Shown here: piece by piece, positions 45,158 through 47,816 of the stretch
Position numbering within the stretch: the stretch's first letter is position 1
How the letters are laid out: every line of letters begins with the position of its first letter
DNA from: a virus
DNA: 64,000 bases
Strand: one strand, 5' to 3'
IMG/VR virus record: IMGVR_UViG_3300032316_000329
Coordinates: 101,115-165,114 of that record
Translations under genes and position numbers: made by a program
The notes under the pieces: model-generated
Database searches by the model: none
The model's input: the letters and a program-made list of their open reading frames with translations, nothing else
What the model was told of the DNA's origin: nothing

Positions 45158-45164
45158 CTAAATA
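45158..45164 (+). promoter_or_regulatory. Putative late promoter (CTAAATA) for pmoC
   Basis: CTAAATA 52 bases before the pmoC ATG. The expected +1 (~45171) coincides with the start of a leader hairpin. Confidence 0.65.
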
Positions 45165-45215: not shown

Positions 45216-45986
45216 ATGAGCGTTGTAAATCGAGCGGCAACAGCCGTGGCTACCGGCGTTGACAGTAAGGTCGTTGACCTTCGAGGAATGTGGATAGGAC
45301 TCGCAACCTTAAACATATTCTATTTAATTGTCCGTATCTATGAACAGGTTTTCGGTTGGCGTGCCGGCCTTGACTCGTTCGCACCAGAGTTCCAGACATA
45401 TTGGATGTCTATTCTTTGGACGGAAATCCCACTAGAACTTGTTTCAGGTCTTGGTCTTGCGGGTTATCTTTGGAAGACCCGTGATAGAGACCTAGCAAAT
45501 GTAGCACCTCGGGAGGAGTTGCGTCGTTTGGTAACACTGGTTCAGTGGTTGGTTGTTTATGCTGTTGCTATTTACTGGGGTGCAAGTTTCTTCACTGAAC
45601 AGGATGGTACATGGCATATGACAGTCATTCGTGATACTGACTTCACTCCGTCACATATCATTGAGTTCTACATGAGTTATCCAATCTACTCAATTATTGC
45701 TGTTGGTGCGTTCTTCTATGCCCGCACCCGTATTCCTTACTTTGCTCAGGGATATAGTTTGGCATTCTTGATTGTTGCAATTGGTCCATTCATGATTATT
45801 CCAAATGTTGGACTTAATGAGTGGGGCCATACATTCTGGTTCATGGAAGAACTATTCGTTGCTCCGCTTCATTGGGGTTTCGTGTTCTTCGGTTGGATGG
45901 CATTAGGCGTCTTTGGTGTTGTTCTACAAATCCTTGGACGAGTTCATGCCCTTGTTGGTAAAGAAGGTTCTGCCCTTCTAACCTAA
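45216..45986 (+). CDS. pmoC: Particulate methane monooxygenase subunit C (PmoC/AmoC family)
   Basis: 256 residues, the usual length for bacterial PmoC, with about six hydrophobic helices. The known copper ligands of PmoC are all present: Asp130, His134 and His147 (DGTWH ... FTPSH; the Asp156/His160/His173 site of Methylococcus numbering) and Asn201, His205 and His219 (NEWGH ... APLHWGF; the Asn227/His231/His245 site). The run from FTPSHIIEFY to the end is very close to alphaproteobacterial methanotroph PmoC. The protein would sit in host intracytoplasmic membranes with host PmoA and PmoB; no pmoA or pmoB is in the window. Membrane insertion needs no signal peptide. Own late promoter before, small secreted peptide and terminator after. 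Confidence 0.95.
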   Translation: MSVVNRAATAVATGVDSKVVDLRGMWIGLATLNIFYLIVRIYEQVFGWRAGLDSFAPEFQTYWMSILWTEIPLELVSGLGLAGYLWKTRDRDLANVAPREELRRLVTLVQWLVVYAVAIYWGASFFTEQDGTWHMTVIRDTDFTPSHIIEFYMSYPIYSIIAVGAFFYARTRIPYFAQGYSLAFLIVAIGPFMIIPNVGLNEWGHTFWFMEELFVAPLHWGFVFFGWMALGVFGVVLQILGRVHALVGKEGSALLT

Positions 45987-46003: not shown

Positions 46004-46138
46004 ATGGGTAATAAAAAACTATATAGATTTTTGTTCTTGGTTCTTTCGTGTTTGATTCTACAGGTGTCCTTTAATCCTACATATGCTCATCATGATGGAT
46101 CAAGTGGTGTGGTATATGAAGGTGCTGGAGGAAGATAA
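46004..46138 (+). CDS. Small secreted His-leading peptide in the pmoC unit
   Basis: 44 residues, ATG after AGGAGAGAAAG, 17 bases after the pmoC stop and before the same terminator, so co-transcribed. Residues 1-28 are a signal peptide (LFLVLSCLILQ core, TYA cleavage site). The mature 16-mer would begin HHDGSSG and end GGR. A free N-terminal His is used for copper in PmoB, CopC and LPMOs, but no such function is shown here. Cleavage before Cys16 as a lipoprotein is a weaker alternative. Not recognised as a known family. Confidence 0.6.
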   Translation: MGNKKLYRFLFLVLSCLILQVSFNPTYAHHDGSSGVVYEGAGGR

Positions 46139-46146
46139 AAATTAAG

Positions 46147-46172
46147 GGGTGGGATTAGTTCCCACCCTTTTT
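46147..46172 (+). terminator. Intrinsic terminator of the pmoC unit
   Basis: GGGTGGGA (46147-46154) pairs with TCCCACCC (46160-46167), loop TTAGT, followed by five T's. Confidence 0.9.
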
Positions 46173-46182
46173 GTATGTAAAC

Positions 46183-46267
46183 ATCGGTTATGCTATTTTT
46201 GACATAATAACCGATTATGCAGGAAATAACATAAACAAATGTAAACAGGGTGCGACAATATGTCGCA
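46183..46267. repeat. Two inverted repeats between pmoC unit and homing endonuclease
   Basis: ATCGGTTAT (46183-46191) with ATAACCGAT (46207-46215), and TGCGACA (46251-46257) with TGTCGCA (46261-46267). The second lies just past the end of the minus-strand gene and could be its 3' end structure. They may also mark the insertion boundary of the endonuclease. Confidence 0.5.
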
Positions 46268-46287
46268 TTGACTCCTATAAAAGAACC

Positions 46288-46794
46288 TTATAGGATGTAT
46301 TCACATTTGTCAAAATGCCATCTTTTCATAGCTGGTTTTTGGCCTACTTTACCACAATGAGGACAAATGACTTTTTCCTGGTTTATTTCCAGAAAATGGT
46401 GTGTTCCATTTGACAATCGTTCCTTTTGTCTATTGGATGCCGCTTCTCTATCAAGGAAAGGATGTTTTCCTTCTTTTGCCTGCCTTTTAGCATTTATTGA
46501 CCTTAGTTTTTTTCCGTATTCCGTTGCTTTATGTCCTTCCACACCATCACCACCATCGGTCAGGTTTCTCAATATACCTGTTCCGTTATCCTTACGACCA
46601 TACCAACGAATATAGAACCTTTCCAAGGCCAAGGCGCCAACTTCCGTAAGATTGGATTCCATAATGACTATTTTTGATTTATCCTTAGGAACGGAAACAC
46701 TATGCCCTATATTCCAGGCTCTGGTTCCTTTTCCTTTTCCGATATAATATGGTGTTAGATTGTCTTTGCGTAGGTAGGCATAAATATAAAACAT
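46288..46794 (-). CDS. GIY-YIG homing endonuclease with C2HC zinc finger
   Basis: 168 residues on the minus strand, in a region otherwise read rightward. N-terminus FYIYAYLR ... [13 protein letters not shown] is the GIY-YIG catalytic start, with Glu in [18 protein letters not shown]-like basic middle is followed by a C-terminal zinc finger CPHC ... HFDKC (~residues 143-163), as in T4 Seg-type endonucleases. It is free-standing, not within an intron. It lies directly downstream of the pmoC unit. Confidence 0.85.
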
Positions 46795-46822
46795 AGCTGA
46801 TACTCCTTACCGAGTGTTAGAT

Positions 46823-46850
46823 TCCGTGGGAGCGCCAACTCCGCGACGGA
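46823..46850 (-). other. Leader stem-loop of the homing endonuclease transcript
   Basis: Outer arms TCCGT (46823-46827) and ACGGA (46846-46850), inner GGAG (46829-46832) and CTCC (46839-46842). On the minus strand it begins at the expected +1 of the late promoter. In T4, leader hairpins of homing endonuclease genes can block early translation. Confidence 0.55.
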
Positions 46851-46855
46851 TACCT

Positions 46856-46862
46856 TATTTAG
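46856..46862 (-). promoter_or_regulatory. Putative late promoter (CTAAATA, minus strand) for the homing endonuclease
   Basis: TATTTAG on the + strand reads CTAAATA on the minus strand, 62 bases before the endonuclease ATG. Presence on the minus strand upstream of a minus-strand gene supports the late-promoter reading of this motif. Confidence 0.65.
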
Positions 46863-46874
46863 GCATTTTTGTAT

Positions 46875-46903
46875 TTGACAAATACTATTCCTTGTGCTAT
46901 AAT
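46875..46903 (+). promoter_or_regulatory. Early-type promoter
   Basis: TTGACA (46875-46880), 17-base spacer ending ATTCCTTGTGC, TATAAT (46898-46903), 35 bases before the Api92-like gene. The spacer end matches the promoter at 29010. Confidence 0.9.
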
Positions 46904-46937: not shown

Positions 46938-47423
46938 ATGTGCCCTAATTGGTGTTCTAATAATCTCTCCCTATCACATAAAGATCCGGCTATGATTTCT
47001 CGTGCCAAAAAGGCATTTGAGGAAAACAGGTTTTTTCAAGAGTTTGTTCCTCTTCCTGAGGATAAGAAAGATGACTGGTACGAGTGGCATATTGACCATT
47101 GGGGAACCAAGTGGGATGTTGCAAACGGTTTCATCGGAATGGAGTCTGCTAAGGAACTTGGCCTAGGTTTTGATACAGCCTGGTCGCCGCCTCTTGCTTT
47201 CTATAAAAAGATGGAAGAGTTAGGGTTTGAGATTTCTGCTCATTACCGTGAAGAAGGTATGGGTTTTATTGGTGAGTATTCTGACGGTATTGATGAGTGT
47301 TATGATTATGATTTTGCCGATGATGAATGGCGAGATCATCTTCCTGAGCACCTTGCCGAGGAGTTGGAGTCGGAATACGAGTTTTGGAAAGAATATCAGG
47401 AAGAAAACACAGAGGAACAATAA
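46938..47423 (+). CDS. Api92/YubB-like ferredoxin-fold protein
   Basis: 161 residues from ATG 46938 with AAAAAGGA upstream; the in-frame ATG at 46869 lies before the promoter. CPNWCSNNLSLS at the N-terminus, HWGTKWD and FDTAWSPPLAF in the middle are the landmarks of the Api92-like ferredoxin-like domain family found in phages and plasmids. It is a ferredoxin fold by name, not an iron-sulphur protein. C-terminus acidic. Function unknown. Confidence 0.75.
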   Translation: MCPNWCSNNLSLSHKDPAMISRAKKAFEENRFFQEFVPLPEDKKDDWYEWHIDHWGTKWDVANGFIGMESAKELGLGFDTAWSPPLAFYKKMEELGFEISAHYREEGMGFIGEYSDGIDECYDYDFADDEWRDHLPEHLAEELESEYEFWKEYQEENTEEQ

Positions 47424-47816
47424 GTGCATCTATTACATCCTTGTTATACTACCAACAACACCCGCAAACGGAAGGCCCGCAAGCCTTCCAAGTCTGCGAG
47501 AGAACATGAGGCGTGGCTAAAATCCATTGGCCTACATATATCACAGTTGCCTAAAAAACGTAAAGCAGTTAATAGTATAAAAGAATGTGCCGAAGGTCTC
47601 AAAGTAGATCGGTCGGGTTATGTTTCGTCAGGTATTAAAGGTACTAAGTATGCCTGTGCCAAAACTGATATTATGACTAATCTTCACAAAGAACCTCGGC
47701 ACATACAGGAAGCGATCTTGGCTAAAGCGGCCAGGACCGCTCCCTTATATTCCAAAGGACCTTATCAACTTATAACTGATGGTGCGTCTTTATCGGAAAT
47801 CGGCAAAAAAATGTAA
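47424..47816 (+). CDS. Hypothetical protein
   Basis: 130 residues from a GTG start one base after the previous stop. Basic, with KRKARKPSKSAREHEAWLKS and SGIKGTKYACAK. Proteins of this shape occur in T4-like cyanophages. Function unknown. Confidence 0.55.
   Translation: MHLLHPCYTTNNTRKRKARKPSKSAREHEAWLKSIGLHISQLPKKRKAVNSIKECAEGLKVDRSGYVSSGIKGTKYACAKTDIMTNLHKEPRHIQEAILAKAARTAPLYSKGPYQLITDGASLSEIGKKM

Follow-up and report, generated by a model that had tools for sequence, protein, structure and literature searches.

The window analyzed here is a 64,000-nucleotide stretch of a 165,114-base virus record. Its pmoC gene (positions 45216 to 45986, plus strand) encodes a 256-residue AmoC family protein (Pfam AmoC, E value 1e-108), whose nearest cellular relatives are in Methylocystis (92% amino acid identity). 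A T4-type late-promoter box for pmoC, CTAAATA, lies 51 nt upstream (45158 to 45164, plus strand). Such boxes occur 5' of 10 of the 77 open reading frames (ORFs), against 1.4 expected, with head and tail genes among the 10, as named by reading of the proteins; a late sigma factor of the gp55 type is encoded in the same genome (G000:119193-119732; PHROG 234, E value 1e-57). The window phage is T4-type, and its host is probably Methylocystis. It resembles the pmoC phages of freshwater lakes in gene content and phage type, including a Methylocystis-like pmoC, and some of those phages carry hsp20 beside pmoC (PMC7674155). Homing endonucleases are not mentioned in the main text of that study (PMC7674155). 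Our search of a cultured-phage collection did not retrieve pmoC.

The pmoC transcription unit also includes ORF44 (46004 to 46138, plus strand), which encodes a secreted-type small peptide of 44 amino acids, and has an intrinsic terminator at 46144 to 46172 (plus strand; fold of -19 kcal/mol over 46139 to 46180, z score -3.6). The sole ORF44 relative found lies in contig L014, likewise behind pmoC. As a general companion of pmoC, ORF44 was dropped, its relative being confined to that contig.

On the opposite strand lies a complete, free-standing GIY-YIG homing endonuclease gene of 168 codons (46288 to 46794, minus strand), as judged from PHROG matches, catalytic residues, and predicted fold. 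A preliminary description, whose span (46183 to 46862) comprised this ORF and its flanks, had called it a free-standing GIY-YIG enzyme with a zinc finger, directly following pmoC on the other strand. The gene, its intact catalytic motif, the zinc-finger motif, and the orientation were all confirmed. The nuclease cassette is indeed beside pmoC, but "directly" was too strong, since a 0.3-kb gap with ORF44 and the terminator separates the two. The best profile matches of the nuclease were to PHROG 15526 (2e-24, unknown function) and PHROG 10829, with further matches to the homing-endonuclease PHROGs 314 (3e-8) and 655 (1e-7). Because the Pfam GIY-YIG model (PF01541) did not reach its threshold with this ORF, the assignment leans jointly on motif, fold, and PHROGs. 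Across 12 aligned relatives, Y3, Y5, Y17-I-G, R25, E58, and N77 were invariant; an inactive catalytic site, named in the preliminary description as grounds for abandoning its proposal, is not what these Y, R, E, and N positions indicate. Above a Z score of 4, only GIY-YIG folds matched the predicted N-terminal domain, all of them moderately (Z, 4.2 to 7.4; e.g., PD-T4-3, 7.4; UvrC, 6.1; I-TevI, 5.7), and a plain Foldseek search with the predicted structure gave no significant match. The C terminus carries a C-x2-C...H...C motif of the zinc-finger type, which may bind zinc. Relatives of the nuclease were found in 79 other viral loci, and none of the matches from that search of viral loci was an identical copy from another genome. 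These relatives, together with the empty alleles described below, make the nuclease more than a chance observation.

Insertion of the nuclease cassette and its relation to pmoC

The nuclease lies within an inserted cassette of ∼0.6 kb (46276 to 46880, junctions ±10 bp) that has TTGAC at both ends and is missing from five related contigs (L003, L055, L392, L393, and L396). In alignments of L003 and L055, the intergenic region from pmoC to the same downstream gene is uninterrupted and holds no nuclease. Contigs L392, L393/L394, and L396, searched for with the downstream genes, have the same neighbors and neither pmoC nor nuclease. The left flank of the cassette is a conserved intergenic block with hairpins (46170 to 46275, plus strand; 95 to 98% identity in L003, L392, and L393), and across the right junction L392 and the window are near-identical. 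The conserved block contains two inverted repeats, its flanks are ∼80% identical in relatives, and it is retained where pmoC is absent as well.

To the right lies a gene for a DUF1281_C-like protein (46938 to 47423, plus strand; Pfam DUF1281_C E value of 1e-3, below the cutoff), syntenic in all five contigs. Its -10 hexamer, TATAAT (46898 to 46903, plus strand), stands in the right flank that is nearly identical in L392, and its -35 hexamer, TTGACA (46875 to 46880, plus strand), was either brought by the cassette or rebuilt at its end. The spacing of 17 nt between the two is the same in L055 (TTGACT) and L392 (TTTACA). In the window, the cassette lies between the original -35 and -10 positions and ends in TTGACA; the insertion thus went into a promoter and left behind one that looks functional. 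Judged from these alignments, the promoter invaded by the cassette is that of the DUF1281_C-like gene, next after the pmoC unit, with the -35 replaced and the neighbor's promoter retained. Among T4 homing genes, displaced or embedded promoters have been described (PMC2988022). The small ORF beyond the DUF1281_C-like gene (47424 to 47816) gave a very weak I-HmuI NUMOD-like match and serves as a marker gene for this phage group.

The preliminary description had further proposed that pmoC could spread as a passenger, with the nuclease cutting insertion-less phages and repair copying pmoC along with it. We regard this as quite improbable. Relatives with pmoC and no nuclease, which that description had set beforehand as a refuting case, exist in L003 and L055, and most pmoC loci have no adjoining nuclease. 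Three allele states occur at the locus: neither gene, pmoC alone, or both. On the simplest reading of these alleles, pmoC and the nuclease would be separate insertions ∼0.3 kb apart, with pmoC a neighbor rather than a required passenger. Parsimony would place pmoC first and the nuclease second; loss is possible. The locus is also polymorphic for pmoC itself, which is missing altogether from the syntenic L392, L393, and L396.

What speaks for the passenger proposal comes from signs of exchange and from a weak enrichment. Co-conversion tracts covering pmoC had been suggested as a check, and an apparent exchange tract at pmoC was found in contig L002 (6001 to 6768). This contig is L003-like upstream and in the 5' part of pmoC to approximately codon 188, while over the final ∼200 nt of the gene identity to the window reaches 98.5%; only 3 differences follow position 564, versus 80 before it, and an informative-site test reached this pattern in 0 of 20,000 permutations. 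L002 stops exactly at the pmoC stop codon, however, and may be an assembly chimera, given that end point and the several pmoC phages in the same sample; a search for its continuation past pmoC returned none. The mosaic 3' end of its pmoC thus keeps partial co-conversion open. In L033, which has an HNH nuclease upstream of pmoC, identity to L031 is 80 to 92% from the nuclease to pmoC and 94 to 100% from the pmoC promoter onward. This divergent tract of ∼290 bp ends short of pmoC, and the difference is supportive at most, as the same gene is less conserved in other pairs too. Finally, matches to the RNA element described below fell within 2.5 kb of pmoC on 4 contigs, against 1.36 expected (P = 0.033 with the window excluded; 0.03 to 0.1 across the comparisons on long contigs, likewise excluding it). 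Taken at the level of sequence, exchange beside pmoC appears real or at least likely. For pmoC phages, the allele states would separate gain or loss of pmoC from the arrival of the nuclease, at a spot traded in short tracts.

The two-hairpin element at nuclease genes

Relatives of the nuclease have a 5' leader in common, and a pattern scan found the same element before HNH nucleases. In the window, the element is predicted as a structured RNA antisense to the nuclease, followed by a T-rich stretch (46793 to 46855, plus strand; covariance model R3, 69.3 bits, E value 6.5e-17). It consists of hairpin A (46797 to 46820, plus strand) and hairpin B (46823 to 46850, plus strand), the latter adjoining the T-rich stretch, and the plus-strand fold of 46793 to 46865 has a predicted energy of -24.1 kcal/mol. 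The element overlaps the promoter, ribosome site, and start codon of the nuclease. The GGAG ribosome-binding site (46803 to 46806, minus strand) lies beneath hairpin A and is conserved in the family, and the nuclease's own late-promoter box, TAAATA (46856 to 46861, minus strand), is found 5' of 162 of 177 distinct leaders, mostly 10 nt from the conserved core.

A second box, ATAAATA (46780 to 46786, plus strand), lies in the first codons of the nuclease and is the putative inward late box of the antisense RNA. Its coding-strand counterpart, TATTTA, falls in the first 24 nt of the coding sequence for 142 of 177 leaders, with all three frames represented, compared with 11 of 2,256 control windows. 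Because TATTTA is kept in three frames, the recurring MxIY, MYL, and MIF protein starts reflect conservation of nucleotides and not of protein. Two other explanations of this motif were rejected. As the promoter of a divergent neighbor, it would not be expected to be equally frequent for either neighbor direction, as it is; as one arm of an RNA switch pairing with the promoter box, it has a fixed sequence, flank covariation at one marginal position (P = 0.03), and low predicted pairing.

The pattern-only scan of viral contigs retrieved at least 120 stretches; among the matches listed, 80 loci gave 97 model matches. Of the 97 ORFs behind these matches, again among those listed, 86 join one nuclease cluster by shared domains and two form a second cluster, one of these matching a head-closure PHROG and having zinc-finger-like cysteines; most of the remainder are truncated, either at the end of a contig or by an early stop. 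Representative ORFs matched HNH_3, HNH, GIY-YIG, and homing-endonuclease PHROGs. An Rfam search of the window, L009, L102, L101, and L016 gave no relevant match. At L222:4595-4660 and L232:2658-2723 the element precedes zinc-finger-like proteins, that in L222 with a head-closure-like PHROG 218 domain, and in L165, L168, and L197 it precedes ORFs resembling DNA-binding (NUMOD-like) repeats in which a nuclease domain is not obvious.

Folding strand and candidate functions of the element

The 51 aligned leaders show strong covariation, and several measures distinguish the two strands. For the antisense alignment, the predicted fold has an energy of -22.2 kcal/mol and 19 pairs, of which 15 covary and one is an invariant G-U; for the coding-strand alignment, the values are -14.1 kcal/mol and 10 pairs. 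In the antisense fold, 96.8% of cells are paired, and the covariation score is 0.63, versus 0.21 for shuffled and at most 0.13 for slid alignments. Single-sequence folds were more stable on the antisense strand in 178 of 179 cases. In the Caulobacter phage Cr30 copy, the two strands are nearly equal (-22.5 and -21.5). An A-C mismatch on one strand corresponds to a G-U pair on the other. On the coding strand, helix 1 contains 0 G-U and 12 A-C combinations and helix 3 contains 7 and 109, with 0/9 and 0/83 in an unbiased set, counts that are non-independent because the sequences are related. Terminator-like hairpins on the same contigs contain 6.6% G-U. The occurrence of A-C with hardly any G-U on the coding strand indicates the strand opposite the nuclease as the one that carries the conserved fold. 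These comparisons show that the element is conserved and that the fold predicted for it is an antisense-strand one.

An alternative is a coding-strand leader of the type described for T4 I-TevI and SegB and Aeh1 MobE (PMC2988022), in which mRNA hairpins mask the ribosome site in read-through but not in late transcripts. The late box immediately upstream, the ribosome site inside the element, and the T4 precedent for both free-standing and intron genes (PMC2988022) are all in keeping with such a leader. We nevertheless judge it decidedly unlikely, as the wobble asymmetry points to the opposite strand and the invariant antisense G-U corresponds to a mismatched A-C in the coding-strand fold. Nor do predictions pair the promoter box with TATTTA (mean probability, 0.16), and late and read-through RNAs differ little in how far they open.

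The remaining alternatives accept the fold or the repeats and assign them another role. The inverted repeats could act as DNA, either as a recombination end or as an operator for autorepression, for which repression by I-TevI at its late promoter is a precedent (PMC2988022). Helix 1 is near-strictly Watson-Crick, as a DNA site would allow, but stem sequences are free to vary as long as pairing holds, and A-C mismatches on one strand only imply a single folded strand; this role appears highly improbable. An opposite-strand fold could also insulate or terminate transcription across the cassette without regulating the nuclease. The T-rich stretch after hairpin B would suit a terminator, as would the orientation of the nuclease, which is antisense to both neighbors in 75 loci and co-oriented in 36. 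The element is retained in the co-oriented loci, however, and a terminator has no need of a hairpin A with fixed sequence or of its own box at the right distance, so that we consider this function unlikely. That box, the inward one, lies ∼6 nt ahead of the first antisense hairpin, the spacing expected for T4-type late promoters. Part of the T-rich stretch at the 3' end of the predicted RNA is simply the nuclease's own promoter box.

With moderate confidence, we favor a model in which a selfish cassette sits in its neighbor's promoter, pmoC is separate, and a 5' antisense RNA gates nuclease expression. A cassette made up of a late promoter, structured leader region, and GIY-YIG nuclease would have inserted after the pmoC unit. 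Its two late boxes face each other around the two-hairpin element, and the inward box would give rise to a short antisense RNA of ∼60 nt. By covering the ribosome site and start codon, this RNA would, judging from position and fold, keep translation of the nuclease low while both promoters fire. The nuclease, in turn, would cut the empty promoter allele and be copied in with short flanking tracts.

A broader proposal, to which we give somewhat less than an even chance, is that a portable antisense-RNA module is common to large T4-type phages and has been combined there with homing nucleases of the GIY-YIG, HNH, and other types, and that it constitutes a new RNA family acting as an RNA brake. 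If true, unrelated selfish genes would share one brake, a new way of taming homing genes, and the module would offer a testable model for phage tolerance of homing nucleases. One conserved RNA at unrelated homing nucleases could also serve as a marker for finding nucleases without protein similarity.

Comparison with known systems

In the open-access literature, the nearest precedents were the T4 leaders and CfrI of phage S-PM2. The locus resembles T4 Seg, Mob, and I-TevI in having a nuclease gene of the free-standing or intron kind in T4-type phages, with late expression, a displaced or embedded neighbor promoter, and RNA structure at the ribosome site (PMC2988022). In contrast to those systems, one element is common here to unrelated nuclease families, with its fold on the opposite strand. 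Neither covariance model found the two-hairpin element in T4, Aeh1, or Aeromonas phage 25.

CfrI, like the RNA predicted here, is antisense and is associated with a homing endonuclease gene that adjoins a host-derived metabolic gene (PMC2984593). It differs in its length of ∼225 nt and in spanning both psbA and the nuclease gene F-CphI (PMC2984593). Model R3 gave no match in S-PM2, and the element was likewise not found in ICP1, phiM12, and three others. F-CphI itself, which adjoins psbA and takes part in collaborative homing, is similar in being a free-standing nuclease whose neighbor is an auxiliary metabolic gene (PMC5931967). Unlike the window nuclease, it has an Endo VII-type motif (PMC6083498), and its target is an intron site within psbA, whereas there is no sign here that pmoC is a target. 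In clusters or islands of homing endonuclease genes, nucleases likewise lie close to important genes and at exchange boundaries; the account of those islands describes no RNA element, promoter, or leader that they have in common (PMC10448857).

Among cultured phages, BLAST gave no convincing match to the element, but the covariance models did find copies. R3 matched Sinorhizobium phage phiM9 (twice), Caulobacter phage Cr30, and, with a low score, Pseudoalteromonas phage XG4; the phiM9 and Cr30 copies adjoin genes annotated as homing endonucleases. The presence of the element in cultured Sinorhizobium and Caulobacter phages makes it testable in ordinary laboratory hosts. Copy number varies among phages: the window's own genome has a single copy, and the phage contigs L206, L233, and L240 (142, 361, and 333 kb, respectively) carry 12 or 13 each.
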